This document shows, piece after piece, positions 31,111-46,687 of a stretch of 64,000 nucleotides of DNA. This DNA comes from Pseudomonas fluorescens. GTDB taxonomy: Bacteria; Pseudomonadota; Gammaproteobacteria; Pseudomonadales; Pseudomonadaceae. Positions within the stretch are counted from its first letter, which is position 1. The number at the start of each line of letters is the position of its first letter. Made by a program: the position numbers and the translations under genes. The DNA lies in NCBI RefSeq assembly GCF_902497775.2, contig NZ_OZ024668.1, forward strand, positions 271,826 to 335,825, given 5' to 3'. The notes under the pieces are model-generated. The model was given only the letters and a program-made list of their open reading frames with translations. It searched no databases and was not told where the DNA came from.

Positions 31111-31186
31111 GCCGGTGTAGCTCAGTCGGTAGAGCAGCGCACTCGTAACGCGAAGGTCGCAGGTTCGATTCCTGTCTCCGGCACCA
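31111..31186 (+). tRNA. tRNA-Thr(CGT), island integration site
   Basis: 76 bases with CCA. Acceptor GCCGGTG / TCTCCGGC-type pairing with the 3' end; anticodon loop CTCGTAA gives CGT. The last 23 bases recur at 46688-46710 with one mismatch, which identifies this gene as the target of the island. Confidence 0.96.
31164..31186 (+). repeat. attL core (tRNA-Thr 3' end)
   Basis: 23 bases ending CTGTCTCCGGCACCA, matching 46688-46710 at 22 of 23 positions (T versus C at the sixth base). Confidence 0.88.
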
Positions 31187-31230
31187 TTCAACTGTTCCGA
31201 TACGTCTCTTCTTGTACACGGAACCCCATG

Positions 31231-31256
31231 AAAAGCCCGCCATGTGCGGGCTTTAT
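31231..31256 (+). terminator. tRNA-Thr terminator (island copy)
   Basis: AAAGCCCGC-CATGT-GCGGGCTTT followed by ATTGT. A related hairpin follows attR at 46753, so the island seems to bring a replacement terminator for the tRNA it splits. Confidence 0.75.
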
Positions 31257-31286
31257 TGTCTCTGGTTGTCTCATTCTGTCTCTAGG

Positions 31287-31346
31287 CATATACCGATTTT
31301 AGGTATACGTTAGGGTATACGCCGGTTCGACGAGAAAACGTATACC
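31287..31346. promoter_or_regulatory. Putative integrase/excisionase arm sites, left end
   Basis: Four related octamers: CATATACC (31287), GGTATACG (31302 and 31314, 12 bases apart), CGTATACC (31339). They fill the gap just before the integrase start and recur at the right end (46614 and 46626) with the same orientation and 12-base spacing. Confidence 0.6.
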
Positions 31347-31347
31347 T

Positions 31348-32676
31348 ATGGCACGCACCGTTACGCCCCTCTCAGACCCCAAATGCGAGGCCGCCAAGCC
31401 GCGGGACAAGGACTACACCCTGTTCGACGGTCAGGGCCTGTTCCTGCTGGTCAAGAAGAACGGCAGCAAGATCTGGCGCATGAAGTTCAAGCGGCCGGAT
31501 GGCAGAGAGGGGCTGGCCACCTTCGGCAACTACCCAGCGCTGACACTCAAAGCCGCCCGTGCGCGCCGAGCCGAAGCGCTGGAGTTGTTGGCGCATGGTA
31601 AAGACCCGATTGAGAGCGCCAGGCAGGGGAGGGTCGAAGCGGCGAACGCGAGGGCCAACACCTTCGGCGTGCTGGCCAAGGACTGGCACGACGCCTGCTC
31701 TAAGAAGTGGTCCCCAGGTCATGCCGCGACGGTGTGGCGGCGTATCGAAACTTACCTGCTCCCGGCCCTGGGCCAGCGCCCGGTGGCCGGCCTCAAGACC
31801 CGCGACCTGTTGGCGCCGCTCAAGGCTGTGGAAAAGCGCGAAGTTTTGGACACTGCCGGCCGGCTACGGCAGTACATGACTGGGATCATGCGCATGGCTG
31901 TCCAGCACGGGCACATCGACACGAACCCTGCAGTCGACCTTCAGGGCGCAACTGCTACACGCAAGACCGTCCACCGGCCTGCGCTTGCGCTGGATCGGCT
32001 GCCTGAGCTGCTGCAACGAATCGACAGCGACACTGGTCGGCCGCTGACACGGTTGGCCACCCAGCTCACCCTGCTGGTGTTTATTCGATCCAGTGAGTTG
32101 CGGTTTGCGCGCTGGCCAGAGATCGACACCGATCGCTCCATGTGGGAGATCCCCGGGGAGCGCCAGCAGATTGAAGGTGTGAAAAACTCGCATCGCGGCT
32201 CCAAGATGAGCACGCCCCACCTGGTACCTCTCAGTCGCCAGGCACTGGCCACGCTCGAGCAGGTGCGCCTGCTCACCGGGCGCTTCGACCTTGTGTTCGC
32301 GGGTGACAGCAACCACTGGAAGCCCATGAGCGAGAACACGGTGAACAAGGCGCTTCGACGCATGGGCTACGACACCAAGACCGAGGTGTGTGGGCATGGG
32401 TTCAGAGCCATGGCCTGTTCTGCGCTCGTCGAATCGGGACTGTGGAGCAAGGACGCGGTAGAGCGTCAGATGAGCCACCAAGAGCGTAACAGTGTGCGGG
32501 CGGCATACATCCATAAGGCTGAGTACATTGAAGAACGCCGGCTCATGGTTCAGTGGTGGGCCGACTATCTGGATGCCAATCGAGAGAAGCACATCACGCC
32601 TTATGACTTTGCTCGCGTGGGGGAGGGTGTAAGCAATGTGGTGCGTGGAGCATTCGGCATGATTGGACAGCAATGA
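31348..32676 (+). CDS. P4-type tyrosine integrase
   Basis: 442 aa. N-terminal DUF4102-type arm-binding domain (GQGLFLLVKKNGSKIW, about 25-90), core-binding domain (about 105-190), catalytic domain with R247 (FIRSSEL), H350 and R353 (HGFR), H377 (MSHQ) and nucleophile Y387 (AAYIHKAEY). All catalytic residues are intact. It should cut at the tRNA-Thr 3' end and be responsible for att recombination. The start codon abuts the last arm-like site, so integrase may control its own promoter. Confidence 0.95.
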   Translation: MARTVTPLSDPKCEAAKPRDKDYTLFDGQGLFLLVKKNGSKIWRMKFKRPDGREGLATFGNYPALTLKAARARRAEALELLAHGKDPIESARQGRVEAANARANTFGVLAKDWHDACSKKWSPGHAATVWRRIETYLLPALGQRPVAGLKTRDLLAPLKAVEKREVLDTAGRLRQYMTGIMRMAVQHGHIDTNPAVDLQGATATRKTVHRPALALDRLPELLQRIDSDTGRPLTRLATQLTLLVFIRSSELRFARWPEIDTDRSMWEIPGERQQIEGVKNSHRGSKMSTPHLVPLSRQALATLEQVRLLTGRFDLVFAGDSNHWKPMSENTVNKALRRMGYDTKTEVCGHGFRAMACSALVESGLWSKDAVERQMSHQERNSVRAAYIHKAEYIEERRLMVQWWADYLDANREKHITPYDFARVGEGVSNVVRGAFGMIGQQ

Positions 32677-32995
32677 AGACAAGTATTCGATTAAAAGCCG
32701 GTGTTCTTGGTGTTCTTGGTGTTCTTGGTGTTCCAAAAACGCTGGAAGCCAAAAACCACGAGGTCTGTAGCCAAGGAACACCTTTGTCTAAACGGCGGAA
32801 CACGAAGACGCCGGAACACCCAAGGTGTTCCATGAGCGAGGCGCCTCGGCCCGTGCGCCCGTCTACGCCAACGCAAGCCTCCTCCTCCTGCTGGCCGCTC
32901 TTCGGATGCGCTCACGCACTCAATCACGGCCCGGCGCGGCTTTGTCTGCGCCAACCGGGGCGTGGGGATCGTCAAATATCTAACGGCGCATTGCT
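32677..32995. other. Non-coding stretch holding the left GGTGTTC cluster
   Basis: No gene supported. It contains the left iteron-like block (32700-32831) and an 18-base stretch (TCCTCCTCCTGCTGGCCG, 32880-32897) that recurs in the same orientation at 45945-45962 beside the right block. Open frames here give proline/threonine repeats from the iterons and are rejected. Confidence 0.6.
32700..32831. repeat. Left GGTGTTC iteron-like cluster (putative replication origin or crr)
   Basis: Four GGTGTTC units exactly 9 bases apart (32700, 32709, 32718, 32727), then GAACACC at 32776 and 32814, GGAACACG near 32797 and GGTGTTC at 32824. The whole block is homologous to the reverse complement of 46055-46176. 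The unit resembles the GGTGAACA octamer bound by P4 alpha protein, as I recall it. Confidence 0.65.
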
Positions 32996-33850
32996 ATGAC
33001 TCTTGGCAAATTAATGAGTCCCCTGAACCTCGACCTCGACGAGCTTGAGTTGGAGTTGGAGTGGTTGCCGCTTTATGGCGAATTCGCCGAACGCTTCACT
33101 GAGGCGATTGATCTAGTGGCGGCTGGTATCGAAATGTGGAGTCCTCATGAGAGCGAAGAATGGGCAGTTGACGTGGCAGCAGAGATAAACCGAAAGCTCT
33201 ATAACATTGCGCAGGCGCTGGATCGGTCTCCAGCACTGGGCTTGGCTTGGGCGGTGCGTAACGCAGGGTCATGGGAAAGGCGTGCCACCGATTCACAGCT
33301 TGTGGCGGCCCTCGCTATGGCTTATGGCTGCCGGGCGATACATGCTCTTCGCAAATGGCTAACGCACTTGGCTGACGATGTGGTGGAGGCATTTGGACGC
33401 GTGCGTGTTGAGGACTTAAGGGTTAATGACCCTGAGGTTTACGCCACCATCGTTAATGATTGCCGTATTGAATGTCCGATAGCCGAGATCGAGGCACGGC
33501 AGTCGGCTGCAGATTTGCTGGGGCGCGCACGAAATTCCCTCATCTTCGCGGAGTTTTATCGGAATCCAAGTATTCCACCCGAAGCAATGGCGCGACTTAA
33601 TGAGCAAGCAGTAAAGAAATCTCGTGCAGCGACAGGCAGAAAAGCCGGGGCAAGAAGCGGTGCCGCCAGGCAGGAGAAGAATGCCGGGCGCGACAGGGAA
33701 ATCTGTGATGCGGGCCGGAAGCTACTCGCGTCTGGTAGGGCCCCCAGTGAAATCTCAGGGATCATTTCACGAATGGAAGTTTCGGGAAGCCTTGGGTCCA
33801 AGGGCGTACGGGACGTGCTACGCAAAGGACTTGTTCTGGATCCCGCCTAA
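32996..33850 (+). CDS. Hypothetical island protein
   Basis: 284 aa, soluble, acidic at the N-terminus (DLDELELELEWLP), mostly helical, with a basic segment around 210-235 (KKSRAATGRKAGARSGAARQEK) and a C-terminal part (SGIISRMEVSGSLGSKGVRDVLRKG) that could be a helix-turn-helix. I do not recognise it. The ATG at 32996 lacks a clear ribosome-binding site; a second ATG at 33014 is possible. Its position beside the left repeat cluster could fit a DNA-binding or replication role, but that is speculation. Confidence 0.6.
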   Translation: MTLGKLMSPLNLDLDELELELEWLPLYGEFAERFTEAIDLVAAGIEMWSPHESEEWAVDVAAEINRKLYNIAQALDRSPALGLAWAVRNAGSWERRATDSQLVAALAMAYGCRAIHALRKWLTHLADDVVEAFGRVRVEDLRVNDPEVYATIVNDCRIECPIAEIEARQSAADLLGRARNSLIFAEFYRNPSIPPEAMARLNEQAVKKSRAATGRKAGARSGAARQEKNAGRDREICDAGRKLLASGRAPSEISGIISRMEVSGSLGSKGVRDVLRKGLVLDPA

Positions 33851-33856
33851 ATTACA

Positions 33857-33881
33857 GGGAGGTGAACCATGTTCACCTCCC
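33857..33881. promoter_or_regulatory. Perfect inverted repeat GGGAGGTGAAC-CAT-GTTCACCTCCC
   Basis: An 11-base perfect palindrome with a 3-base gap, between the hypothetical gene and the HTH gene. Could be an operator for the HTH or AlpA protein or a tight hairpin. It contains GGTGAAC, close to the iteron unit. Confidence 0.5.
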
Positions 33882-33933
33882 TCCTGCCTCTTATCTTCGC
33901 CCCCGTTGGTTTCATCAAACCCGGGGGCATCAC

Positions 33934-34167
33934 ATGCAACTCAATCGAACTGTGACAACTGTTTCACCCGCTGACCTTCTCACGCCTGAGCAGGCGGCCC
34001 AACTGTTGGGCCTATCGGTAAAGACCCTGGCCACCTGGCGCAGCACTGGTCGGCACGCTCTCCCATTCATCCGCTGCGGCGCACGTATCCGTTATCAGCG
34101 CACCGAGCTGGTCGCCTGGCTAGCAGATCGGCACCACACCCCCGCCGCGCCTCGGGGGGAAATCTAA
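33934..34167 (+). CDS. Small helix-turn-helix protein (excisionase/MerR-like)
   Basis: 77 aa. LLTPEQAAQLLGLSVKTLATWRSTGRHALPFIRCGARIRYQRTELVAWLADR is a complete HTH_17-type winged fold. Such proteins act as excisionases or regulators in mobile elements. The ATG at 33934 is chosen for the family start. Its stop overlaps the next start as TAATG, opening a run of four coupled genes. Confidence 0.8.
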   Translation: MQLNRTVTTVSPADLLTPEQAAQLLGLSVKTLATWRSTGRHALPFIRCGARIRYQRTELVAWLADRHHTPAAPRGEI

Positions 34168-34499
34168 TGTCCCCGCATCAAACCTTTGGCAAAACCCCCG
34201 CCCAATCGACTCCTTGCCGTGCGCATACCCGCGAAGTCTCGGGGCGCAATCTGCGCCAGGATATGGGTCAAGCTCCAGGCTTTGACCCTGCCGCCACGCT
34301 GATTCGCTTCCCCGATGTAGTGGCTATGACCGGTCTAGCTCGCGCAACTATCTACAAGCGCCTCAAGGACGATCCGACCTTTCCCCGCCCCGTGCCGTTG
34401 AGCAACAGCACGTCACGGGGAGCACCAGTGGGATTTGTTCTCGCAGAAGTGCAGCGCTGGGCGCGTGAACGTATTGAAGCTCGGGGGATCACTGCATGA
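34167..34499 (+). CDS. AlpA-family regulator
   Basis: 110 aa. A variable N-terminal 40 residues, then LIRFPDVVAMTGLARATIYKRLKDDPTFPRPVPL and FVLAEVQRWARERIEAR, the AlpA / prophage CP4-57 regulator pattern. AlpA-type proteins promote excision or activate integrase in P4-like elements. Coupled by overlapping stop/start codons to both neighbours. Confidence 0.85.
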   Translation: MSPHQTFGKTPAQSTPCRAHTREVSGRNLRQDMGQAPGFDPAATLIRFPDVVAMTGLARATIYKRLKDDPTFPRPVPLSNSTSRGAPVGFVLAEVQRWARERIEARGITA

Positions 34500-35101
34500 G
34501 ATCCGCTCGCATGCCGTTTACTGGCCCCTTCTTCGACACATACGGAATTGGCTTTGCCCTGTACCAGACGGGCCGCAACAACTGGAAGCAACGTACCGTC
34601 GCAGGTGTAAGTTGGAATGGCCAGGAAGGAAAAGCGCACTTTTTCAACCCTGATGGCCTGGTGCTTCCGCTGGTTCCTTCCCCTTGGGAACTGCCTGCCG
34701 TGTTGCGCCAGCAGAGAACGCGAATGGAGCCGGCACAGGTGATGGGATCGGGTGTATTCGCTATGACCCATCCCGCTGGAGATTCGGTGCTATCGAACGA
34801 ATCAAACCAGTGGGTCACTTACTGGCTCGTAGGGAGTGATGCGGCCTATGCAAATTGCCAAGAGGTATGGGGTGCCTATGTGGAGTCTCAAGTAGCGGCT
34901 GAGCGCAAAGCGGCCGAACACAACTACGTTGATGCCCGCCGTATCAGCCAACGCGCAGAGCAGGAGCCGACCTGTGATGGTCTGCCCGAATGGGTCCGAG
35001 TAAACACTGAGGATTGCCGTCGCATCCTGCGTTCTGAGTATGAGCGCGAATGTGCGGAGGATCAGCGAGTTGCGGCCTGGTTGCGAGGGTGCGCCGCATG
35101 A
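34496..35101 (+). CDS. Hypothetical island protein
   Basis: 201 aa, soluble, aromatic-rich at the N-terminus (GPFFDTYGIGFALYQTGRNNWKQRTVAGVSWNG), charged helices at the end. Not recognised. Start ATG overlaps the alpA-like stop (ATGA) and its own stop overlaps the next start, so expression follows the AlpA-type gene. Confidence 0.65.
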   Translation: MRSARMPFTGPFFDTYGIGFALYQTGRNNWKQRTVAGVSWNGQEGKAHFFNPDGLVLPLVPSPWELPAVLRQQRTRMEPAQVMGSGVFAMTHPAGDSVLSNESNQWVTYWLVGSDAAYANCQEVWGAYVESQVAAERKAAEHNYVDARRISQRAEQEPTCDGLPEWVRVNTEDCRRILRSEYERECAEDQRVAAWLRGCAA

Positions 35102-35430
35102 AACCTATTTTCCTGCCCGCCGCTGCCCTTGATGCCATAGACGAACTGGGTCCAAAGGCACCTTCGCCTGGGCGACTGGAGCGACTGCAAAAACTCCGCG
35201 ACGAAGCACTGGCCAAAGGGGCGCACGTTCTACTGCTGATTTGGCCGACCCTCGATTGGGGGCTGCTCGCTGTCGAGGCGCCTGGGGACGTAGTAATTCG
35301 GGATGCAGCGCAGTTGGTGCCCAACGTGCTGGCCAATCCCGATGCATTAGGACAGATGTATGAGAAGGCCAGGCAAGGCCGCAATCTCACTTGGCTCAAG
35401 CTTGAGCGTCCCCCGGCCATTACCCACTAA
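35098..35430 (+). CDS. Hypothetical island protein
   Basis: 110 aa, starts MKPIFLPAAALDAI. Hydrophobic middle (HVLLLIWPTLDWGLLAVE) is too short and polar to be a clear membrane helix. Not recognised. Last gene of the HTH-AlpA run; a terminator follows 6 bases after its stop. Confidence 0.65.
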   Translation: MKPIFLPAAALDAIDELGPKAPSPGRLERLQKLRDEALAKGAHVLLLIWPTLDWGLLAVEAPGDVVIRDAAQLVPNVLANPDALGQMYEKARQGRNLTWLKLERPPAITH

Positions 35431-35435
35431 CGAAA

Positions 35436-35462
35436 ACGCCCCCGGCTGCAACCGGGGGCGTC
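35436..35462 (+). terminator. Hairpin ending the HTH-AlpA operon
   Basis: ACGCCCCCGG-CTGCAA-CCGGGGGCGT, a 10-base GC-rich stem, but followed by CTGAGG without a T tract, so termination strength is uncertain. Confidence 0.6.
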
Positions 35463-35592
35463 TGAGGATCTTCACTGTGCCCGCTCACTCTATGCCATGG
35501 CCAAGAGCCATGCAACCTGCCCGCACCACTCAGCTTGCGCTTCGTCGGCTCACACGTTACTCTCCGCCTGTCGCTGCAAATCCAGCGACCGG

Positions 35593-35617
35593 GTTTGGCG
35601 ACCCGATCAGTAACAGG
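35593..35617 (+). promoter_or_regulatory. seqA-like target of the antisense RNA
   Basis: Contains TTTGGCGAC and AGTAACAGG. Both are complementary to loop sequences of the downstream structured RNA (CGCCAA and CCTGTTAC) and both recur in the seqC-like site. Confidence 0.55.
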
Positions 35618-35656
35618 CGCACAGGCGCCCATACCACCATTGCAGGCGCTTTTTTT
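35616..35656 (+). terminator. Attenuator: antiterminator versus terminator
   Basis: GCGCC at 35625-35629 can pair with GGCGC at 35616-35620 (4-base loop) or with GGCGC at 35645-35649, which is followed by seven T (terminator). Antisense pairing to GTAACAGG (35610-35617) would take two bases of the first stem and favour the terminator. Confidence 0.55.
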
Positions 35657-35677
35657 GTGCCCGCAATGCCTTGTTAT

Positions 35678-35755
35678 GGTGGCCGTGCGTGGGAGACCTT
35701 CGGGTCTGCCGGGTTCCTGTTACCCCGGTTCGCCAACCTGCGCACGGCTGCCACC
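35678..35755 (+). ncRNA. Putative P4 CI / P1 C4-type antisense RNA
   Basis: A closing stem of 12 pairs (GGTGGCCGTGCG at 35678-35689 with CGCACGGCTGCCACC at 35741-35755, 3-base bulge) encloses two hairpins: AGACC-TTCG-GGTCT (35694-35707) and CCGGG...CCCGG (35709-35728). The second loop carries CCTGTTAC (35716-35723), complementary to GTAACAGG on both sides. In P4 the CI RNA pairs with seqA and seqC to terminate the replication operon; the same layout is seen here. Assignment is inference from structure and context. Confidence 0.6.
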
Positions 35756-35763
35756 CATAATCG

Positions 35764-35806
35764 TTTGGCGACGGTTTGTGGCAGCTCCTCACCAGTAACA
35801 GGAGCT
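35764..35806 (+). promoter_or_regulatory. seqC-like target covering the ribosome-binding site
   Basis: TTTGGCGAC (35764) and GTAACAGG (35795-35802). AGCTCCT (35783) and AGGAGCT (35800) form a hairpin whose 3' arm is the AGGAG ribosome-binding site of the gene at 35813, so antisense pairing would cover that site. Confidence 0.55.
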
Positions 35807-35812
35807 ACGCCC

Positions 35813-35977
35813 ATGCACGCCCTCAATCCGTCTGCTCTCCAGAGCCACATTGCCGCCCTGAAGGCCCGTGCCATTGCGGCACTGCACGCCAATTCATCCC
35901 TCTCCGTCCGCTTGGCGCGTTACAACGCGGCGATGGCCCGTGCCCGCGCCCTGGAAGCAAACGGGGGTGCCCAATGA
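35813..35977 (+). CDS. Small leader-gene protein of the replicase operon
   Basis: 54 aa (MHALNPSALQSHIAALKARAIAALHANSS...), helical and alanine-rich, with a good AGGAG site. It occupies the place of the small kil/eta-type genes between CI RNA and the replication genes in P4, but no sequence similarity is claimed. Its stop overlaps the next start as ATGA. Confidence 0.6.
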   Translation: MHALNPSALQSHIAALKARAIAALHANSSLSVRLARYNAAMARARALEANGGAQ

Positions 35978-36261
35978 CTACTCAAGTACAGCACTGCTCT
36001 CAACCCGAAGACCTGCTTTGCGTTACCGCACAGGCGCCCGCTGGCGTCCCAATAGATGCGATCACCTGTGCCGTTGAGCGAGCCCGGGCAGTGCTGTGCT
36101 TGCTGGAGGATCAGTTCGAGGCGGAGCAGGGGCAGCGCCTGGCTAACCGCGTGATTCTCGGCGCCCTGTGGGACGTACGTGGGACGCTGGAGCAGATTCA
36201 TACCCTGGTCGTGCATGCCGACGACTCGACCCGCCATGTCGGGGAAAGGGGGCGGAAATGA
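35974..36261 (+). CDS. Hypothetical protein of the replicase operon
   Basis: 95 aa, helical, with a C-terminal half (ALWDVRGTLEQIHTLVVHADD) similar in style to small pseudomonad proteins that accompany DUF3077 genes. Start and stop are both overlapped by neighbours. Function unknown. Confidence 0.65.
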   Translation: MTTQVQHCSQPEDLLCVTAQAPAGVPIDAITCAVERARAVLCLLEDQFEAEQGQRLANRVILGALWDVRGTLEQIHTLVVHADDSTRHVGERGRK

Positions 36262-36542
36262 GCGGGCGCGTTCAAGTTAATACGGCAGGTGGGGCCACTT
36301 TCTCTAAGCACAACTCGTTGAATCAACCGTTCTTCCAGGTGTGCCCTGGTATCTCCGGTGAGGAAGCTTTAGAGCAGGCTTCCGTGCTCATGGATTGCGT
36401 TAACAAATTAACTCAGTTGGCTGGCATGAGCGGCGATAACGAGTCCCTGGTATGGGCGGCACACTATCTGGGCGAGCAGGCAAAGGCTCTCATTGATGAC
36501 GTGGCCACCGGGATTCAGATTGCCGAGAGTGGCGAAGCATGA
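36258..36542 (+). CDS. DUF3077-like protein
   Basis: 94 aa. FFQVCPGISGEEALEQASVLMDCVNKLTQLAGMSGDNESLVWAAHYLGEQAKALIDDV is the DUF3077 pattern as I recall it. A paralogue lies just outside the island at 47936-48217. The family is common in pseudomonads and has no assigned function. Coupled by ATGA overlaps to its neighbours, directly before the primase gene. Confidence 0.75.
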   Translation: MSGRVQVNTAGGATFSKHNSLNQPFFQVCPGISGEEALEQASVLMDCVNKLTQLAGMSGDNESLVWAAHYLGEQAKALIDDVATGIQIAESGEA

Positions 36543-39415
36543 GCAGGAAGATGCCCAGCTCCCGGCATCCGACCTTTGCCCAGGTCAAAGCCGCTTCCTT
36601 GGCGGCGATTGACCGCGTGCTGGCCCACTGGCTTCCAGGTGGCAAGCGCGTAGACGGTGGCAAGGAGTACACCGCACCCAACCCAACAAGAGCGGACAAG
36701 CATTCAGGTTCGCTCAAGGTGAACCTGGCCAAAGCCACCTGGTGCGACTTCGCCACCGGTGACAAAGGCGGCGATTTGATTGACCTGGTGCGCTACCTTG
36801 ATCGCGGCACCGATGTGGAGGCCTGCAACAAACTGGCGGCCTTCCTGGGCGTCGAAGCGACAAATAGCACCAACGTCACACCGCCCACTAGCCAGGCCAA
36901 GAAACCAGAGTGGGTGCCCGTGTTGCCCATTCCTGAGCAGGCAATGCAGAAGGTGCTGCAAGCGCACCGGCAGCACGGTAAACCTTCCAAGGTTTGGATT
37001 TACCGTGACTCCAACGGTCAGCCACTTATGGTGTTGTACCGCTTCGACCTCGGGCCGGATGAGAGCGGCACGCCGCGCAAAGTGTTCGCGCCCCTCACTT
37101 GGTGCAAACACTCTGCAAATGACTCGATGGCCTGGCGCTGGCAGGGCTTGTCGGAGCCTCGCCCGCTGCTGCGCCTTGCTGAGCTGGCCAAACGCCCCTC
37201 GGCACCAGTAGTGCTGTGCGAGGGCGAGAAGGCCGCCGATGCCGCTGCCGAGCTGTTGCCCGAGCATGTTGCCACCTGCTGGCCTAACGGGACGAACTCT
37301 TGGCAGAAGGCTGATTTCGCTGCGCTAGTCGGGCGTGACGTGTTGCTGTGGCCAGACAACGACGTCCCAGGCTTGAAGTGCATGGATGCCTTGGCCGACC
37401 ACCTGCTAAAGCTCGGAGCTGCCAAGGTGCAGACGGTAGCCTTAACGGTGTTCGGACAACTCCCTGGTATGAACGGTGAGCGCCCCACCTTCGCCCCAGG
37501 CGGTGAGTGGCGCGAAGGTGACGATGCGGCGGATGCTCAATCCAAAGGCTGGACTGCTCAACACTTGGCAGAGCTGCAGCGCACCGGGGAGCTGTTCGCC
37601 CTCGCACCTGCCGCCACACCCGCCCTCACCAAGCAGAGCAAGACCACTGGCCAGGCCAAGCCGCAACCCGAGAAGAAAACCGCCCCGGCCCCGAGCGGCT
37701 TCCGTGTCACGAAGGATGGGGTGTTCTATGCCGGTGAGGATGGCGAAGCACGCCCGGTTTGCTCACGGTTAGAGATATTGGCTCGCACCCGTGACGAAAA
37801 GGGCCACGGCTGGGGCCTGCTGGTGGAGTTCGATGACCCGGATGGGGCCAACAAGCGCCTCAACATTCCGGCCAGGGCAATGGCGGGCGACTTTGGCAAG
37901 GAAGTGCTCGCGCCACTGGTTGATATGGGGCTGAGACTGGCGCCCGTGCGCACTGCTCGCAATTCGCGCAACGATCTACAGAGCTACTTGCAGGGCTATG
38001 ACAGTGCTGAGCGTGCTCGTCTGGTCACTCGTCTAGGCTGGCACGGGGATGCCTACTTGTTGCCAGATCGGCAGATAGGTGCCAGCGCCGAGTATCTGCA
38101 CTTCTACGAAGCCGGTGCCCAGCTTCCGCCGATCACTCAGGCAGGGACGCTGGAACAATGGCAGCAGCAAATCGGTTCGCTTTGCGTGGGCAATAACCGG
38201 CTGGCGTTCGTCGTATGCGTGGCTTTCGCTGGGGCGGTACTGCATCTACTGGGGCACGAGTCGGGCGGTTTCCACCTGTACGGCGATAGCTCGGGCGGGA
38301 AGACCACCCACCTGCAGGTGGCTGCCTCGGTTTGGGGTGGGCCACGTCTGGTGCGCTCCTGGCGCTCTACAGACAACGCCCTGGAAAGTATCGCGGCGGC
38401 GCACTCGGACGGGTTGCTGGTGCTCGATGAGATCGGGATGTGCGACCCACGGATCATTGGGGAAACGGTCTACATGCTGGGTAACGGCACCGGTAAGGCG
38501 CGGGCCAATGATCGGGGCATGAGTGGGCGCCAAGTTCAGGAGTGGCGCTTGCTGTTTCTCTCCACCGGGGAAAAGACCTTGGCGCAACACATGGCCGAGG
38601 CAAACAAGGAATTGAAAGCCGGTATGGAGGTGCGACTGCTTGCTGTACCGGCTGACGCGAGCAAAGGGCTAGGGTTGTTCGAAGAGCTGCATGGCTTCGA
38701 CGATGCCGCCGCGCTGTCGGATGCGCTCAAGGCCCGGGTGAGCCGATGCTATGGCACGCCTGCCCTGGCTTTCCTGTCGGCCCTCTGTGAGCCCGCCAAG
38801 TTGCGGGCATATGCGGCCATGGTGCGCAGCACTCTGGAGCGGTTTACCACCGAGGCATTACCTGCCAGCGCCAGCGGCCAGGCACAGCGTGCCGCAACTC
38901 GCTTCGGACTGGCAGCGGCGGCGGGTGAGTTGGCCACAGCCTTGGGCGTTACAGGATGGCCAGACGGTCTAGCGCTGCAATCCGCGCGCGTGTGCTTGGA
39001 TGCTTGGTTGGCTGAACGTGGCGGTGCTGGAAACCTGGAAGGTGACGCTATCGTGGCCAGATTGCGCGGCATGGTGGAGCGCTATGGAGAAAGTCGCTTC
39101 ACGCGATGGGATTCTATTGCCGCAAAGACCGATGACCATGCGCCACGTACAGCAGACCGGCTTGGCTTTCGCAGGACTATGGATCATGGCATTGGTGACT
39201 CTCTATATACGTCGGTGACCTATTACTTCCTCGGCACAACTTGGCGTGATGAGGTTTTTAAAGGAATGAACTTGCGAAATGTAAATAGAGAGCTAGTTAC
39301 GCGCGGAATACTTGAGCCGAGCGGAGATGGAAAAGCCGCCCAATCCGTATCACTACCCGGAATGCCGAAAGGACGGGTTTATGTTGTGAATTCAAACGTA
39401 TTGCTTAGCGACTAA
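36539..39415 (+). CDS. DUF927-type primase/helicase (satellite replicase)
   Basis: 958 aa. The N-terminal half is primase-like: a CHC2-like region without obvious zinc ligands (about 10-110) and a TOPRIM-like motif VVLCEGEKAADAA (about 224-236) with LLWPDNDVPG further on. The C-terminal DUF927 helicase-like half has Walker A GDSSGGKTT (about 582) and Walker B GLLVLDEIGM (about 625). This architecture is that of replicative proteins of satellites such as the P4 alpha protein. It likely recognises the GGTGTTC clusters of the island, which is inference. Controlled by the attenuator and antisense RNA upstream. The last 250 bases become AT-rich. Confidence 0.88.
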   Translation: MSRKMPSSRHPTFAQVKAASLAAIDRVLAHWLPGGKRVDGGKEYTAPNPTRADKHSGSLKVNLAKATWCDFATGDKGGDLIDLVRYLDRGTDVEACNKLAAFLGVEATNSTNVTPPTSQAKKPEWVPVLPIPEQAMQKVLQAHRQHGKPSKVWIYRDSNGQPLMVLYRFDLGPDESGTPRKVFAPLTWCKHSANDSMAWRWQGLSEPRPLLRLAELAKRPSAPVVLCEGEKAADAAAELLPEHVATCWPNGTNSWQKADFAALVGRDVLLWPDNDVPGLKCMDALADHLLKLGAAKVQTVALTVFGQLPGMNGERPTFAPGGEWREGDDAADAQSKGWTAQHLAELQRTGELFALAPAATPALTKQSKTTGQAKPQPEKKTAPAPSGFRVTKDGVFYAGEDGEARPVCSRLEILARTRDEKGHGWGLLVEFDDPDGANKRLNIPARAMAGDFGKEVLAPLVDMGLRLAPVRTARNSRNDLQSYLQGYDSAERARLVTRLGWHGDAYLLPDRQIGASAEYLHFYEAGAQLPPITQAGTLEQWQQQIGSLCVGNNRLAFVVCVAFAGAVLHLLGHESGGFHLYGDSSGGKTTHLQVAASVWGGPRLVRSWRSTDNALESIAAAHSDGLLVLDEIGMCDPRIIGETVYMLGNGTGKARANDRGMSGRQVQEWRLLFLSTGEKTLAQHMAEANKELKAGMEVRLLAVPADASKGLGLFEELHGFDDAAALSDALKARVSRCYGTPALAFLSALCEPAKLRAYAAMVRSTLERFTTEALPASASGQAQRAATRFGLAAAAGELATALGVTGWPDGLALQSARVCLDAWLAERGGAGNLEGDAIVARLRGMVERYGESRFTRWDSIAAKTDDHAPRTADRLGFRRTMDHGIGDSLYTSVTYYFLGTTWRDEVFKGMNLRNVNRELVTRGILEPSGDGKAAQSVSLPGMPKGRVYVVNSNVLLSD

Positions 39416-39510
39416 CTAATAGCATTTAACTAGCCGGGAGATTAGTGGCCACTTATAGGCTCGGCCTGCCTACGCCTGCGCTTACCTAAACTTAATTGTT
39501 GGAGTCCCAA

Positions 39511-40365
39511 ATGAGCAAAAATTCTTCTATGTTGAAACAATGTCAGGTTGAACTAGCAGGTTTGAAGAAAGATCTTCCTCGGCTGAAAGCCGTCGCTGAC
39601 GAGGCTGAGAAAACATTTGCCAATAGCCGTCAGGGAAGACCTGTCTATCCTCGGGATCAGATCGCGCCTTACTCGAATGCGAAAGCTAAAATTGATGAAC
39701 TATCTCGAGAGATTCCACGACTTCAAGGTTTGGTTAACTGGGAGGAAGGTATAAAATCTGCTTCTGAAACCGTGCATCTGGCTAGAAAAGAAATAGCGAA
39801 AACTCAGAGCGAAATTAAAACCCTGCGCGATAAGCGAGAAACGTTGGAGTCCAAGAGGGCAGCTCTTGTTGCGAAGCACGAACGCGAATTTAGAGATGCT
39901 GAGCGGGATGAGCACCAAGCTGCCCAAGCTTACGCCCAGTCGATGGGGGGAAATGATACTGGAGTTGAGCGCAAGGCAGAAGGACTGTTGCAGAAAGCGT
40001 CCCACGCATTGGCTGTAATCAAACAGGCGCTTCAAGGTGCTAATGCAGTCTCCTCTGCACTTAGTGCTCAGCTCTCGGAGCTTGACGATGCCATTCAACA
40101 GAAGCAATCCGAGCTTGACAGTTTGAACTCAAAAGTCCTCCAGGCAGCTCGATTCTATTGGGCGGACCGATTTGAAAAGGCTGCACAGGAACTGGCGATC
40201 CTAGCTGCCCACGTTTCAGCATCTGATAAATTACTGGGGTATGGTGATAGCTTAACCGATCTCTACATTCCAACTATGTCGCCGGAAAAAGCTCATTTCA
40301 TTTCTCATCGTAGGATTCTGGATCGACGCAGCCATGTCAAATTTGAACAGCTGACAGATATTTAA
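39511..40365 (+). CDS. Coiled-coil protein, hypothetical
   Basis: 284 aa, almost entirely charged helix with heptad-like Leu/Ile spacing (residues about 5-230), as in rod-shaped coiled coils. GGAG precedes the ATG at 39511. AT-rich compared with the replicase gene. Not recognised; it could be a structural or sensor partner of the cargo genes, but it points the opposite way to them. Confidence 0.7.
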   Translation: MSKNSSMLKQCQVELAGLKKDLPRLKAVADEAEKTFANSRQGRPVYPRDQIAPYSNAKAKIDELSREIPRLQGLVNWEEGIKSASETVHLARKEIAKTQSEIKTLRDKRETLESKRAALVAKHEREFRDAERDEHQAAQAYAQSMGGNDTGVERKAEGLLQKASHALAVIKQALQGANAVSSALSAQLSELDDAIQQKQSELDSLNSKVLQAARFYWADRFEKAAQELAILAAHVSASDKLLGYGDSLTDLYIPTMSPEKAHFISHRRILDRRSHVKFEQLTDI

Positions 40366-40731
40366 ACCCCCCAAAGCTGCCTAAAGCCAGCTTCACTACC
40401 CGATCCAAACACCATACTCGGATTGAGTGATGGTGTTTGGTTCATATGAATTAGGGCGAGTGCCGTCTGTTTTCAGTGAGAACCGCGCCGCTATTTTTAG
40501 TATGGACCTGTACTCCCTGGAAGCTGCCTCTATTGATGTGAGTTTTTCCGACGGCATAGTTCGTTTGACTTTACTAATCACCTCTGAAACGGCAGGGGCA
40601 GAACTCGCGCTTTCACTGGCTGAAGCCACCCAAAAATCTTAAGCCACTAACGTTGTAGCTCAGTTGCGGCCGGGGGGCGTCCGCTGCAATGACGGATCAG
40701 CCGTCAGGCTATGTGCGACTGACTTCGCCAT
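40366..40731. other. Gap between coiled-coil gene and cargo
   Basis: Contains an 11-base perfect inverted repeat (CCAAACACCAT at 40405, ATGGTGTTTGG at 40430, 14-base loop) that may end transcription from both sides, and GGGGGGCGTCCG at 40672-40683, repeated exactly at 45773-45784. A 71-codon frame at 40427-40642 is possible but has no start signal. Confidence 0.5.
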
Positions 40732-41370
40732 TCAGATTCTGAAGGCGGTGCCTACGTCATATAAAAAGCCGTTGCGGATCGCTATTTTGGTTTTCTCCAG
40801 GCTTCCAAGCATGTGGTTTACAGGAACCTTAGTCTTGCCAAATATGAATGAAGTCGATTCAGAAACTCGTTGGCGCTCATTCACTGGACTCGCGATCACT
40901 GCGAAGAGCAAGGAACCAATTAATGCTAACGGAAACTGGATTTTCCCGTTCCGCGTGCCGACGTAGAGGGCGTTTACAAACTCCACCTTCTCCGAGAGTT
41001 TGCCTTCATGAAGTAGTGAGCAGCGCATGACTTTATAGACAAGATCTTCGAATTCTATATATGTGCTCGACTCGCTAGCGCCCGAGATTTCAAACGAAAG
41101 GCTAGTTGTTTTAGCTGGTGTTCCATTGGTTAGTGACCAGAGAATGAAAGGCAGGGCGTCTTTCAGAAATTTTTTACAGCGCTGAGATGTCTTACTTCCT
41201 GGATAAAGCAGCTTGGCTGTACCGTCGATGGCAATTGCAAGTTGGATGAACGCATTTTCGGCATCTCCTATAGCGAGCTTGGTTGCGCATTCCTGAATTC
41301 GTGCTGCAATGGTCAATAGTGACACCCCTGCGGTCTGATAGCGTATATACGATAATTTGCTGGCTTCCAA
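40732..41370 (-). CDS. HEPN-like hypothetical protein
   Basis: 212 aa, helical. The stretch VYKVMRCSLLHEGKL has R116 and H121, an R-x4-H spacing found in HEPN ribonucleases, preceded by a long helix (AFIQLAIAIDGTAKLLYPG) that fits the HEPN fold. Start is uncertain: TTG at 41370 has no clear site, and a GTG further in is possible. It lies 70 bases after the ABC-type ATPase on the same strand. Working idea: effector RNase of an ATPase-regulated defence pair. Confidence 0.6.
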   Translation of the reverse strand: MEASKLSYIRYQTAGVSLLTIAARIQECATKLAIGDAENAFIQLAIAIDGTAKLLYPGSKTSQRCKKFLKDALPFILWSLTNGTPAKTTSLSFEISGASESSTYIEFEDLVYKVMRCSLLHEGKLSEKVEFVNALYVGTRNGKIQFPLALIGSLLFAVIASPVNERQRVSESTSFIFGKTKVPVNHMLGSLEKTKIAIRNGFLYDVGTAFRI

Positions 41371-41440
41371 AACGGGCTACCGTTGTGGTGGTGAGGCGCC
41401 CAATAGTAAAACTTTGAGCGCCTTGCTCTGCACCATACAG

Positions 41441-43195
41441 CTATGGCACCTCAGGCTCAACCAATGTGGAAATCATATGTTTGATTGTGAGATTTGCCAG
41501 TTTTGACCCTAGTCCAGAAAAGTTATCTTGGTTGGACCTGACATGCATTGCATCGTTATAAATTACCGCGAGCAAAAAATGAACCTCAGGAACAGAGACT
41601 CCCGTCGATTGGGCGAACTGTAATTTATTAACGGTTTTGTGTGTTGATAGAAATTCGTCCTCGAACTCGTCGTCTATTAAGTCGAAGCTTAGTTTTTCTA
41701 CCTGTCTGCGCACTCCGCTACAAACTGCAAGGGGGTCGAAGGTTTTGCCTTCGATATATCGTTTCAATTGATTCGCGCAGTGTGCAGAAAATTGAGACGC
41801 CTTAGCGAGTCCAGCAGAAAGATTGAGGGCCTGAAACTCGTTAGTAAGATCTATATCATCAGAGTGAAAGTGCAGGAAGTGCTTCGAAATTGCCTCCGAT
41901 ATCGTAGGATCCTCTCGTTTCGATATGATGCTTTCAACTGCTTTGTCCGACACCGCAATTTTGTTTAGGTGGCAAACTTTCTGGTCGCTAAACGTGAAGT
42001 TTCTAAAAAAACCAGGGTTTAAGTGTGTCATGATTAATGGGAAAATTTGACGGCCTTCAGATTTTAGCTCTGAAATCATTTGGGTCAAATAGTACTGGCA
42101 GGCAACTAGATTGGCGTCGTCTAGATAGTCGAATATCTCATCTATAACTAAAATAATGGCCTTGTTTTTCTTGAGCTGTAGCTTAGCCTTTTTCAGCTGA
42201 GCGACAAAACAAATGATGTCTCGTTCTCCGTTAGAGATTTGATTTGCCTTCGGGAAGGCAATTACGAGTCCGTCGCCTGTTTCTTTTGGTTGGATGTTAC
42301 GCCATGTGCCTTTAAGGGAAGTGAAATCCTCAATATAGGTTGCTTTCTCGAACACATAGTTAGCGCGCTCTCCTGCCTTTTTAAAGTTTGCCTTGTCGCT
42401 GGCATGAGTATCACCAACCTGCAGTGCTGCGAGGATAGCCTCGATTTGCGAGGTGTAATTTATTCCAGATTCCGCAAAGGCCTCCAAAATGCCACTAACA
42501 AAGTCAATGGCTAATACTGCTTGTATTGTATCATCCTCAATGTTGGCAAGAATTTGCTCTGAATTACCATTTTTTTCGTTGATCTCATCCCGTAGAGCTT
42601 TTATTGCTTTTTTTACACCGGCCTGTGCTTGTTTAGAAAAATCGATCTGATTCCAAATTTTGGCCATAGCACGGTTGTCGGTTAGAATATTGTAAATGTT
42701 CGGTAGGACTTTACCATTTTTTCCGAAGCTTACCTTTGCCGCTGCATAGGAGTAACTAAACTTAGCTTTTTCAGGAATTTTTTTGATCAGAACGACTGGA
42801 GTGACTTCAATTGCTGAGGTGACGATATTGGCACCTCCAATTCTGAGTTTTTTTGCTTTTGAAACCAACTGACTATTAATTACATGAACGCCAAATTCTG
42901 TGGCTAGTTCATTTCTGGTGTGGTTCGCTTCTTTTTCAAGCTTGCTTCCATCCTGCATGGTAAAGCTGATTTTAAGAGAAGGATTGAGATCTTCGTCTCC
43001 TTTGTGGCACTCATCCTTGTCTAATTCCATCCTCTTCGAACGCAGCGAGCGAAAAGCAGCAGTGATGGAGCTTTTTCCAAATCCGTTGGGGGCTACAACG
43101 AGAGTCGGTTTATTTGGAATTAACTGAACATCAAAAGCAGCATTTTCGATCCCCTTAACATTGGCTATGGTGATTCTATCTATTCTTTTAATCAT
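41441..43195 (-). CDS. ABC/SMC-type ATPase, putative defence protein
   Basis: 584 aa. Walker A APNGFGKSS (about 35-43), ABC-like signature QISNGERD (about 316) and Walker B AIILVIDEIFDYLDD (about 342-356) mark a RecF/SMC-like ATPase with both halves in one chain. The C-terminal 190 residues are helical and unassigned. No zinc hook and no nuclease domain are seen, unlike RloC. ATG at 43195 overlaps the small gene before it by 8 bases; a TTG at 43216 is also in frame. Strongly AT-rich. Confidence 0.8.
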   Translation of the reverse strand: MIKRIDRITIANVKGIENAAFDVQLIPNKPTLVVAPNGFGKSSITAAFRSLRSKRMELDKDECHKGDEDLNPSLKISFTMQDGSKLEKEANHTRNELATEFGVHVINSQLVSKAKKLRIGGANIVTSAIEVTPVVLIKKIPEKAKFSYSYAAAKVSFGKNGKVLPNIYNILTDNRAMAKIWNQIDFSKQAQAGVKKAIKALRDEINEKNGNSEQILANIEDDTIQAVLAIDFVSGILEAFAESGINYTSQIEAILAALQVGDTHASDKANFKKAGERANYVFEKATYIEDFTSLKGTWRNIQPKETGDGLVIAFPKANQISNGERDIICFVAQLKKAKLQLKKNKAIILVIDEIFDYLDDANLVACQYYLTQMISELKSEGRQIFPLIMTHLNPGFFRNFTFSDQKVCHLNKIAVSDKAVESIISKREDPTISEAISKHFLHFHSDDIDLTNEFQALNLSAGLAKASQFSAHCANQLKRYIEGKTFDPLAVCSGVRRQVEKLSFDLIDDEFEDEFLSTHKTVNKLQFAQSTGVSVPEVHFLLAVIYNDAMHVRSNQDNFSGLGSKLANLTIKHMISTLVEPEVP

Positions 43196-43331
43196 GAAAA
43201 GTCTTGCCTTTTTCAAGGTGTTTTGTTATTTCGCTACCGCGAGCCTGCGTTTTCGTAAAAGCACGAATCGAAAAAGTATTTGCTGATTTAGGAGCTTCGC
43301 CTAGTCTAAAATAAAATACTAGTTTGGACAT
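43188..43331 (-). CDS. Small protein upstream of the ATPase
   Basis: 47 aa (MSKLVFYFRLGEAPKSANTFSIRAF...). GGAGACCCC directly precedes the ATG. Its 3' end overlaps the ATPase start by 8 bases, so it is translated with it. It could be a short regulator or the remnant of a longer gene; no motif is evident. Confidence 0.55.
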   Translation of the reverse strand: MSKLVFYFRLGEAPKSANTFSIRAFTKTQARGSEITKHLEKGKTFHD

Positions 43332-43433
43332 GGGGTCTCCTGGCCGAATGTCGGTAACGCTCTTTAAAAACAGTCGAGGCAATCCCCATAGTTCGATGGC
43401 ATGACATCAAGAATGACTTTTTGACATCTGACC

Positions 43434-43462
43434 ATCCAGCCGGGAGAGGGTCCCGGCTGGAT
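43434..43462 (-). terminator. Strong hairpin after the OLD-type gene
   Basis: ATCCAGCCGGGA-GAGGG-TCCCGGCTGGAT, a perfect 12-base stem 8 bases past the stop. No T tract follows, but its strength suggests the OLD gene and the ATPase set are separate transcription units. Confidence 0.6.
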
Positions 43463-43469
43463 GTACAGA

Positions 43470-45485
43470 TTATTTCAGTGCAGCGTTGATATCTTTGAAT
43501 AACGCTGTAAATCGAGCAAGAGTGTCATCGGTACAGTTTTCAGCGATATTTGCCACGAAAGCCGCAGCCACAGCGTAATGGTTATAACCTCCGGAAGGGC
43601 GGATTTTTATGCTGTGGGTTGTGAGATACTTTTCAATTCGTCCGACAATTCGATCCCCTGGTGGAAGGTCCGATTGGGTAATGGCTTTATGACCAAGCTC
43701 TTTCTGAAATAATTTTGAGAAAACCATCATGTATCTATCAGGGTCAAGCAAATCCTCGACATCTGTCGCAACACTGTCTTCCCCGATTTTTGAAAGATCA
43801 CGGAACTGAGAGAAATTGAATACCGATTTTTTCTTCAGCAATTTCTGCTGAATTAAAGACTCAAGTTTTTGCTCCGGTTTTCCGTTGTAATCATGCAGCA
43901 CTGCAAGATTAAGGCCATTCGCCCCCAACAAGGATACAAATGTGGCAACATTGCTTAAGCCGCCAACTGGCACGATGGTGGCATTATTAATTAGTCCCAC
44001 CTCCCCAGCAGTCTCGACTATATGGGACATAGCCTGCAATATCGACAACTCTGAAATGCCTTCAACCAAGAGATTGAACTTGGTAACGAATAAGTTTTGA
44101 GCCAAGTTCCAACCAAGTGCTGCTTGGAGAGGGAAAATGGTACGAGGGTCAGAGCCTGAAAGGTTATCCGAAACCACTGTACCAATCTTAACCTTGTCTT
44201 CCACTACACGCACCTGATGCAGTCTGTCAGAATGCACCATGAATGGCGAGTGAGTGGTATATATTACTTGATAGCTTTCAGACAGGTGATCGATGTAGCT
44301 GAGGAAATCTGTCTGTGCAAGCGCGTGAAGAGCAAGTGCAGGCTCATCAAGTAGGAGCACCAAAGAATTATTACCAGCATTACCGCTCGCGTCGAGCTGG
44401 TGCTGAACACTATCGAACCATACAAGAAAGCTAAAGAACCAGATGAATCCGCGACTGCGTTGATCAAACGGGGTAGAAACACCACGATGACGGCGGTTTC
44501 TAATCCTGAGATAGATGTTTGGACCATTATTGAATGGGGCGGCGTCGGAGGTGTCTGGGCGAATGTCTATTTCGACTTCAAGGTCTTCATTCTGCTTCCA
44601 GAACTCTAGAACCTGGTCAGTTAGGCTGATAGAAACAGCTTCTATCTGCGATTTTAGTTCCTCGTAGGATTTACCGTTATCGAAATCGGACAAATCTACC
44701 TCGGCCATCCGAAGCAGTGCAAGGACCGCTTGGTGCTTTGGCTCGATCTGTTTGCTCGCATTAGCAGGGTCAGCCGCCGCAGCCTTTACTCGCTGCTTGA
44801 GATCGAGAAGGTTCAGCTTTCCGGGTAGTAAATCGTAATCGCTGAAATACAAAAAGCTGGGTATCGATGGTTTCAAATTTATCAATACTTCATAAGCAGA
44901 AATATGATTCCAGCCCTTGCTCACATCTGCGGCACCTATCCTTTTTTTCAACGACTCAATCAGCGTAGTATCCGCATCATTTGGGGATTCAAATTCTTCG
45001 AGGATCTTGAAGGCGGATCTGATAGTCGTTGCATCCTTGAGAATAGCTCTCACTCCTTCACTCAATGCCATGTTTGATGACATTTTCTTGAGGGCGGGCC
45101 CATCAGTTACGTTAACAGAGTTTGTCCGCTGGTTTTTATAATCAAAAGTTATCGAAAACTCAAAGCCTTCGGTTAAGTCGGTGCCAACCAGCTTATTAAC
45201 TCTATCGAGCTCGCTCGCAACAGGCCTGTATGTCAATTCAGCCGCAACGTCCGGATTATCTTCATGCCGCTTCCTGTAAGCGGTTACATCTTTCCTAGGG
45301 TAGTCATCCGTGATGTTAAAACCCTCTTTCCCCAAAGAATCATTGGCCTTGTGCAATGCTTTGAGAAAAACTGTTTTTCCGGCCTCATTCATGCCGACCA
45401 GTACAGTTACTTCGGAATCAATGGTCACCGTTTGTGGTTCATTGATTGAGCGAAAAGGCCCAACAGTTGCGCGTACGAGCTTCAT
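43470..45485 (-). CDS. OLD-family ATP-dependent nuclease
   Basis: 671 aa. N-terminal ATPase with Walker A GMNEAGKT (31-38) and Walker B LVLLLDEPALALHAL (about 378), then HSPFM, and a C-terminal TOPRIM part with LLVEGISELSIL (about 473) and ATDVEDLLDPDRY. The DxD of the TOPRIM site reads HDYNGK, slightly degenerate. OLD nucleases act against phages, e.g. P2 Old and Gabija GajA. There is no UvrD-like partner beside it, so this is a stand-alone class 1 OLD. ATG at 45485 has an AAAGGAT site; the longer frame to 45638 is not used. Confidence 0.88.
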   Translation of the reverse strand: MKLVRATVGPFRSINEPQTVTIDSEVTVLVGMNEAGKTVFLKALHKANDSLGKEGFNITDDYPRKDVTAYRKRHEDNPDVAAELTYRPVASELDRVNKLVGTDLTEGFEFSITFDYKNQRTNSVNVTDGPALKKMSSNMALSEGVRAILKDATTIRSAFKILEEFESPNDADTTLIESLKKRIGAADVSKGWNHISAYEVLINLKPSIPSFLYFSDYDLLPGKLNLLDLKQRVKAAAADPANASKQIEPKHQAVLALLRMAEVDLSDFDNGKSYEELKSQIEAVSISLTDQVLEFWKQNEDLEVEIDIRPDTSDAAPFNNGPNIYLRIRNRRHRGVSTPFDQRSRGFIWFFSFLVWFDSVQHQLDASGNAGNNSLVLLLDEPALALHALAQTDFLSYIDHLSESYQVIYTTHSPFMVHSDRLHQVRVVEDKVKIGTVVSDNLSGSDPRTIFPLQAALGWNLAQNLFVTKFNLLVEGISELSILQAMSHIVETAGEVGLINNATIVPVGGLSNVATFVSLLGANGLNLAVLHDYNGKPEQKLESLIQQKLLKKKSVFNFSQFRDLSKIGEDSVATDVEDLLDPDRYMMVFSKLFQKELGHKAITQSDLPPGDRIVGRIEKYLTTHSIKIRPSGGYNHYAVAAAFVANIAENCTDDTLARFTALFKDINAALK

Positions 45486-46633: not shown

Positions 46634-46687
46634 GTTTGGAAATATAGAGGCTAGAGGTCAATAAATACGGGGTCTATGGGTGCCTAA

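Follow-up and report, generated by a model that had tools for sequence, protein, structure and literature searches.

A probable P4-type C4 RNA immunity leader in front of the primase operon of a Pseudomonas satellite

In a stretch of 64,000 nucleotides from Pseudomonas fluorescens, which is called the window throughout, we found what is very probably the immunity leader of a P4/PICI-like satellite (we put the probability at about 0.88). In this reading, one transcript carries a leader of the isrK/seqA type, a C4/CI antisense RNA and a target at the ribosome site. The element shares its four pairings and its C4 and isrK model matches with P4; it is a member of the C4 family that should work like P4 immunity, and it is not new as a kind. 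The sequence-only reading had suggested that it was perhaps undescribed. This suggestion has to be given up, because Rfam contains the families C4, c4-a1b1 and isrK, and because passages of PMC10111431 and PMC4825925 cover relatives. Less expected is the presence of dozens of C4 switches in related bacteria, most of which have, judging from their sequences, different specificities.

The transcript is expected to start near 35570, upstream of a replication operon of four genes. Read-through past the leader would yield the C4 RNA, which would probably be released through cleavage by RNase P at the GGU (35678). The RNA would then act back on two sites of its own transcript and of any copy that enters the cell, in the latter case conferring superinfection immunity. 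In the nascent leader, the C4 loop and the segment b’ would pair with the targets a1 and b1, the antiterminator arm would lose its GG, and the sequence GCGCC would be freed to form the terminator at 35625-35656. Further downstream, the same two segments would pair with b2 and a2, and thereby cover the Shine-Dalgarno motif of the first gene, the translation of which is probably coupled to that of the primase gene via ATGA overlaps. According to this model, the operon should be silenced twice by one RNA, by an early end of transcription and by a block of translation.

The satellite and its primase operon

The island comprises positions 31164-46710 and is bordered by 23-bp repeats at 31164-31186, at the end of a tRNA-Thr gene, and at 46688-46710. 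Family searches identified an integrase (31348) and an AlpA-like regulator (34167), and the Pfam run also revealed an HTH protein. These genes are followed by the leader, the C4 RNA, four genes with ATGA overlaps, and ATPases. Hence, the traits of a P4/PICI-like satellite, i.e. a tRNA-adjoining integrase, AlpA, an immunity RNA and a primase, are all present. No structural (capsid or tail) family was found among the subset of island ORFs that was run against Pfam.

The operon is encoded on the plus strand, and it is open through the primase gene. The first gene (35813-35977, start codon ATG at 35813) encodes 54 aa, for which neither Pfam nor PHROGs yielded a match, and the second gene (35974-36261), which overlaps the first by ATGA, encodes 95 aa without a family in Pfam or PHROGs. 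The third gene (36258-36542), with a further ATGA overlap, encodes a DUF3077 protein (PF11275, E 7.6e-19). The fourth gene (36539-39415), again with an ATGA overlap, encodes a DUF927 primase/helicase of 958 aa (PF06048, E 1.6e-79; PHROG DNA primase, E 1.3e-79). The nearest named locus among the best 80 of 103 primase loci is L022 of Pseudomonas vranovensis, with a primase that is 97% identical and a leader and C4 RNA that are the same as in the window over the stretch compared. A search of viral contigs with the primase protein retrieved no relative.

Two further features of the island were observed. On the minus strand, 3’ of the primase operon (41441-45638), an SMC/AAA-type ATPase and an OLD/Gabija-like ATPase with TOPRIM are encoded, possibly as an anti-phage defence cargo. 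In addition, a second 23-bp direct repeat (91%) is located near the island ends (32880-32902 and 45945-45967); it differs from the att-like repeat.

Three RNA families on one strand

Three Rfam families were detected above their cut-offs, in order and on one strand. The c4-a1b1 element, consisting of a first hairpin and the hairpin that displays b1, covers 35557-35609 (plus strand; RF03163, 62.9 bits, cut-off 46.7). The isrK/seqA-like leader RNA, which ends at an intrinsic terminator, covers 35570-35656 (plus strand; RF01394, 53.8 bits, cut-off 50). The C4/CI antisense RNA covers 35672-35758 (plus strand; RF01695, 86.5 bits, cut-off 45). The sequence-only reading had named the Rfam C4 model as a check of its proposal, and the structured RNA that it had placed at 35678-35755 ends near the borders of this match. 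All other elements that it had listed were also present in the sequence at the positions assigned to them.

The C4 RNA folds at -47.4 kcal/mol (z -4.96), which was equalled by none of 200 shuffled sequences. The leader alone was unremarkable (z -1.20; 24 of 200 shuffles were as good). Our own C4 model, R1, was built from the ten C4 copies of the window’s genome and scored the window C4 with 94.4 bits, the window copy being among the ten training sequences. By its motif, the GGU at 35678 is a candidate for processing by RNase P; the proposal is derived from the GGW processing motif of C4 RNAs in passages of PMC5320573. In the best fold of the whole 280-nt transcript, a’ and b’ are paired in cis with the upstream sites and the C4 RNA loses its own fold. 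We regard the advantage of this cis fold over the C4 fold as a sign that processing or kinetics matter, and not as a refutation.

Four pairings and their covariation

The C4 RNA displays CCTGTTAC in its loop (a’, 35716-35723) and carries the segment b’, TCGCCAA, at 35730-35736; like their targets, both are on the plus strand and are defined by sequence and covariation. Upstream, the target b1 (TTGGCGA, 35595-35601) is a 7-nt complement of b’, and the seqA-like target a1 (GTAACAGG, 35610-35617) is an 8-nt complement of the loop. Downstream, the 7-nt complement of b’ recurs as b2 (TTGGCGA, 35765-35771). A second copy of GTAACAGG is found at 35795-35802, where it reaches into the AGGAG ahead of the ATG at 35813. 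The full target a2, GTAACAGGA (35795-35803), is a 9-nt complement of the loop and forms, together with the Shine-Dalgarno motif AGGAG (35800-35804), the region 35795-35804. Thus, the two loop complements and the second pair that backs them up at both sites, which had been claimed from the sequence, were both confirmed, and so were the extension of the downstream target into the AGGAG of the first gene and the overlap of the upstream target with the antiterminator arm: the final GG of a1 is identical with the first two bases of GGCGC at 35616-35620. When both flanks were shuffled with preservation of dinucleotides, 37 of 5,000 shuffles contained an 8-nt loop match in either flank, and none of the 5,000 contained one in both.

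Related islands were retrieved from a collection of species genomes, and the best 80 of 103 primase loci were kept. Most of them are from Pseudomonas, some from Stutzerimonas, one from Azotobacter, and one from a MAG labelled Sphingopyxis. With model R1, a C4 RNA was found upstream of the primase in 78 of these 80 islands; for the remaining two (L051 and L052) the model yielded none. Together with the window and three phage records, 82 C4 loci were available for the covariation analysis. They contain 30 combinations of loop and b’, with 21 loop strings and 19 different 8-nt a’ types in register, a count that leaves out CCCTTTTG, which is out of register. Because the loci are related, locus counts overstate the number of independent events, whereas the number of a’ types does not.

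As a check, the sequence-only reading had asked whether the loop covaries with both of its targets among related islands, and covariation was observed for all four contacts. Across the 30 combinations, the longest pairing with the own target, compared with non-cognate targets, averaged 7.6 versus 4.0 nt for a’:a1, 8.6 versus 4.2 nt for a’:a2, 6.9 versus 3.9 nt for b’:b1, and 7.0 versus 4.2 nt for b’:b2. In 10,000 permutations, the observed sum was not reached once for any contact. For a2, b1 and b2, no other target surpassed the own one in any of the 30 rows, and for a1 this was true of 29 of 30 rows. The sole a1 exception is the L042 type, with a mismatched a1. These satellites (L042, L040, L092 and L116) have the loop CCTTTGTC, an a1 with a mismatch (GACATTGG) and a matching a2; a loss of termination control only is possible for them. 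The CC at the start of a’ is kept in all 30 combinations; it meets the Shine-Dalgarno GG in a2 and, in most cases, the GG of the antiterminator arm in a1. One a’ was found with several b’ types, indicating that the a’ and b’ segments have been recombined.

These results imply that P4-type RNA immunity, so far known best from elements of enterobacteria, belongs to the standard equipment of this Pseudomonas satellite family. The 30 a/b combinations (19 a’ types) predict which satellites should exclude one another, and, given the near-perfect covariation, short RNAs could be used to test the antitermination model directly.

The leader as a proposed attenuator

An alignment of 82 satellite leaders on the b1 hairpin yielded the consensus TTGCaC...TACTCT, from which we infer a promoter-like pair in the window, TTGCGC - 17 nt - TACTCT, at 35535-35563 (plus strand). 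This pair was missed by a simple sigma-70 scan. Likewise, a simple terminator scan missed the terminator at 35625-35656, because its loop exceeds the length that the scan allows.

The segment GCGCC (X’, 35625-35629) can pair either with the GGCGC upstream of it (X, 35616-35620) or with the GGCGC downstream of it (X’’, 35645-35649), which is followed by seven T (35650-35656). The first option is the antiterminator hairpin GGCGC-ACAG-GCGCC (X:X’, 35616-35629, plus strand), and the second is the intrinsic terminator with its U7 tail (X’:X’’, 35625-35656, plus strand). In this leader, both hairpins have the same computed energy of -8.3 kcal/mol. The pair probability of the antiterminator is about 0.84 in the free leader and 0 when a1 is blocked, whereas that of the terminator rises from 0.12 to about 1.0; in silico, the leader is a switch at equilibrium. 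The full mRNA may adopt further alternative structures: a hairpin with the U7 in its loop, which can form only after read-through (35640-35666, plus strand; computed energy -12.7 kcal/mol), the Shine-Dalgarno hairpin described below, and a pairing of the 3’ strand of the C4 stem with a downstream copy of GTGGCAGC (computed value -20.5).

The folding of other leaders did not yield uniform results. In a survey with a coarser terminator measure, 113 of 138 entries, representing 95 distinct leaders, could be tested. The other 25 entries, including L042, L040, L092 and L116, lacked either the T run or a well-placed a1 match of 6 nt and were left out. The mean measure across the 95 leaders was 0.67 in the free state, 0.96 with a1 blocked, and 0.61 with control blocks. 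A rise of more than 0.3 was seen in 39 of the 95 leaders with a1 blocked, compared to 4 with control blocks; the rise was 0.3 or less in 56 leaders, and the measure fell by more than 0.1 in two. In many leaders the terminator predominates at equilibrium without any block of a1, e.g. in that of P4 (1.00 in both states) and in L011 (1.00 free, 0.96 blocked). If such leaders do switch, they must do so kinetically.

The two exclusive helices were strongly conserved. Both were present at five of five pairs in 92 of 103 leaders, versus 45 of 2,060 mononucleotide shuffles, and the antiterminator helix was complete in 99 of the 103. Locus L011 alters all three segments together (GGCGT/ACGCC/GGCGT), and L114 and L154 alter X and X’ together. 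However, the three segments are identical in 80 of 103 leaders and thus nearly invariant, which limits the compensatory evidence to a handful of loci. Taken together, the attenuator logic put forward in the sequence-only reading is supported by the modelled folding of this leader and by the conserved exclusive helices, and less clearly by the other leaders.

Alternative explanations

An arrangement of the P1 type would require only one target. The terminator would be constitutive, C4 would act solely on translation of the first gene, and a1/b1 would be a decoy or a relic. Passages of PMC5320573 describe the C4 RNAs of P1 and P7 as occluding ribosome-binding sites, and the preference of many leaders for the terminator even with a free a1, the L042-type satellites with their kept a2 and mismatched a1, and the many other C4 copies without a T run (15 of 52 copies in genome G049 have one within 60 nt before C4) are in line with such an arrangement. 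Nevertheless, we regard it as quite unlikely, since the covariation with the loop is almost as strict for a1 as for a2, and since the antiterminator helix is complete in nearly all leaders. A decay of the element to a relic with no present function is highly improbable. Some copies indeed look degraded (L010, with a b1 match of 3 nt, and L242), but in the window the four pairings, the operon that is open through the primase gene and the att-like repeats are all present, and the same RNA is kept in nearly all of the related islands.

The leader might also act mainly as an activator, as does IsrK. In that case, the short terminated RNA (35570-35656) would titrate C4 or open the read-through mRNA in trans. 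The match of the leader to the isrK model points in this direction, and the short RNA holds complements of both C4 segments; in Salmonella Gifsy-1, the IsrK read-through mRNA is activated for translation by the short form of IsrK, according to passages of PMC4825925. This possibility is compatible with the double silencing by C4 that we prefer. The sequence gives no sign of effective amounts of the short RNA, and we consider a mainly activating role to be unlikely.

The ribosome site and a possible nested gene

In the minimum-energy fold of 35777-35816, the Shine-Dalgarno motif is hidden without C4 in a hairpin formed by AGCTCC and GGAGCT (35783-35806, plus strand). The frame of the first gene is open back to 35351, and an open frame of 205 aa (35360-35977, plus strand) runs through the leader and the C4 RNA, with the first gene nested in frame at its end. 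In P4, CI sits inside a protein-coding gene that, when translated, prevents termination and that also contains the nested frame of a shorter protein (PMC10111431, in passages). The 205-aa frame may be a counterpart of the P4 nested genes. Of the 80 distinct satellite loci, 44 have the frame of the first gene open across the leader and the C4 RNA; for frame +2 the count is 54, and for frame +1 it is 20. Because frame +2 is open more often than the frame of the first gene, P4-like nesting is suggestive only and not established for the family. At this locus, a conserved nested gene of the P4 type is possible.

Comparison with P4 and other C4 systems

The immunity region of P4 (X51522, 7000-10500) was measured in the same way. 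As in P4, complementary sites lie on both sides of C4 on the same strand, and an intrinsic terminator is located between the upstream site and C4. The likeness between the two extends to the order of the elements, to pairings in P4 of 8 nt for a’:a1, 9 nt for a’:a2 and 7 nt each for b’:b1 and b’:b2, to matches of P4 to the C4 and isrK models (74.9 and 60.8 bits), to the T-run terminator between seqA and CI, and to a first-gene frame that is open back through CI. The P4-type layout, which had been recognized from the sequence, is supported. Two differences were noted. The c4-a1b1 score of P4 (44.1 bits) is below the cut-off of 46.7, and the P4 terminator is favoured in both states in silico and does not require a1 to be blocked at equilibrium. 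Briani et al. 2000 reportedly found that the P4 terminator t1, between the promoter and cI, needs CI RNA and seqA.

The C4 RNA of P1 controls antirepressor expression, whereas the operon controlled here ends in a primase gene. The C4 fold, the a’ and b’ segments, the ribosome-binding-site target and the GGW motif are common to the window and to P1/P7 C4, as far as passages of PMC5320573 describe the latter. The C4 and isrK profiles detect CI/seqA relatives and match several Gram-negative satellites (passages of PMC10111431). IsrK is a structural homolog of SeqA, and a CI-like RNA may modulate termination at the IsrK terminator, as stated in passages of PMC4825925. According to the same passages, IsrK/STnc1160 of Salmonella Gifsy-1 resembles the present element in that a leader with an intrinsic terminator precedes a stable, processed RNA that has sequences complementary to it; in contrast, the short leader there has an activating role, and the product of the operon is an anti-repressor-like protein (PMC4825925).

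The best phage match was phiAH14b, a satellite of Pseudomonas sp. ANT_H14, with 81.8% identity over 91% of a query of 254 bases. It has int, AlpA, leader, C4 and primase in the same order, and a CDS is annotated over the stretch that matches the 205-aa frame. However, its a’ and b’ segments are others (CCTTTTGC and CCGTCAA), and primase and helicase are annotated as two genes. The word “antisense” is absent from the main text of the phiAH14b paper (PMC4936722).

A large repertoire of C4 RNAs in Pseudomonas

The genome of the window contains ten C4 RNAs over the cut-off (loci L009-L018), and the own a2 was the unique best target for 8 of the 10. Among the leaders listed for this genome, a run of seven T before C4 is present only in the island leader and in L011. 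A second C4 of the window is located outside the island at 48558-48644 on the minus strand (76.1 bits). It has its own a1/b1 element (57 bits; whole unit 48558-48717, minus strand), its loop and b’ differ from those of the island, and it precedes a gene of 75 aa starting with MLKIVPDPP and a DUF3077 gene.

A genus sample of 59 genomes, one per species and including that of the window (G000-G058), was searched with stricter filters, which may lose weak matches. C4 RNAs over the cut-off were found in 53 of the 59 genomes. At an E value of 0.001 or better, the search yielded 996 matches, with a median of 14 and a maximum of 54 per genome, and none in five genomes. A fuller search of the genome with the largest set (G049) retrieved 55 matches, 52 of them over the cut-off (loci L191-L242). 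The copy number of DUF6124 tracks that of C4 across the sample (Spearman 0.88), from which the genome of the window departs with 3 DUF6124 matches versus 10 C4 RNAs. In G049, a start of the type P[ND]PP follows C4 by 39-56 nt in 36 of 52 cases. When six proteins encoded behind C4 were compared with Pfam, one matched DUF6124 over the cut-off, one matched DUF3077, and four matched nothing, the latter including one that was out of frame and the second gene of the operon.

Weinberg et al. 2010 predicted C4 RNAs for Pseudomonadales, as cited in passages of PMC5320573. The Group 1 C4-like sRNAs of A. baumannii are similar in having many chromosomal copies and a variable a’ loop (passages of PMC5320573). 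The copies examined here often precede genes that start like those for DUF6124 proteins. Among the matches listed in literature searches on C4/isrK RNA, DUF3077 and DUF6124, we found no description of the large Pseudomonas set, and DUF6124 had no literature match.

We tentatively propose, at somewhat less than even odds, that the switch of the satellite belongs to a large repertoire on the chromosome, with up to about fifty C4 units per genome, many of them gating a small gene of the DUF6124/DUF3077 type. Paralogous units of one genome would have been driven apart in specificity, and the resulting set of largely orthogonal switches could serve as self-silencing, addiction-like units and as RNA immunity against incoming satellites or phages of a matching a/b type. 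Such a repertoire makes the uncharacterised DUF6124 and DUF3077 families approachable.

The specificities were compared for 132 loci of three genomes. The pairing with the own a2 averaged 7.1 nt, versus 4.5 nt for others, and none of 5,000 permutations reached the observed sum. The frequency with which an a segment was shared over at least 7 nt hardly differed within genomes (84 of 2,886 pairs, 2.9%) and between genomes (203 of 5,760 pairs, 3.5%). Both a and b were shared by 8 within-genome and 52 between-genome pairs. For pairs with downstream regions at least 85% identical over 300 nt, chosen after a shared-word prefilter, both segments were shared in 3 of 59 pairs within genomes versus 21 of 70 between genomes (Fisher p 0.0002). 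Because the pairs are non-independent and the between-genome pairs include orthologues, this result reveals a divergence of paralogues and does not prove selection.

In G049, all 52 loop strings are distinct, yet the a’ cores are partly common, e.g. CCTTGATT in L194, L214 and L235; the loop finder misplaced a few loops of this genome (L204, L227 and L234). Only 20 of 52 rows had their own target as the single best match, and 14 of 2,652 non-cognate matches were at least 8 nt long. Complete orthogonality of this set is not claimed, given the partly shared cores and the non-cognate matches. Ten G049 loci share the first 7 nt of one satellite a’ type; where compared, their b’ segments are unlike those of the satellites of that type, and the predicted cross-immunity is therefore weak. 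Eight genomes contain two C4-bearing islands each, and the loop types differ within each genome; estimated from the loop frequencies, chance gives such a difference about half the time, and it was not taken as a signal.

Within a genome, closely related downstream genes are mostly preceded by C4 RNAs with different loops. Three pairs of loci have downstream regions that are 94-98% identical over 300 nt and C4 loops that are unrelated: L217/L218 in G049, L249/L252 in G019, and L294/L310 in G036. L249 and L252 have a common b’ despite their unrelated loops.
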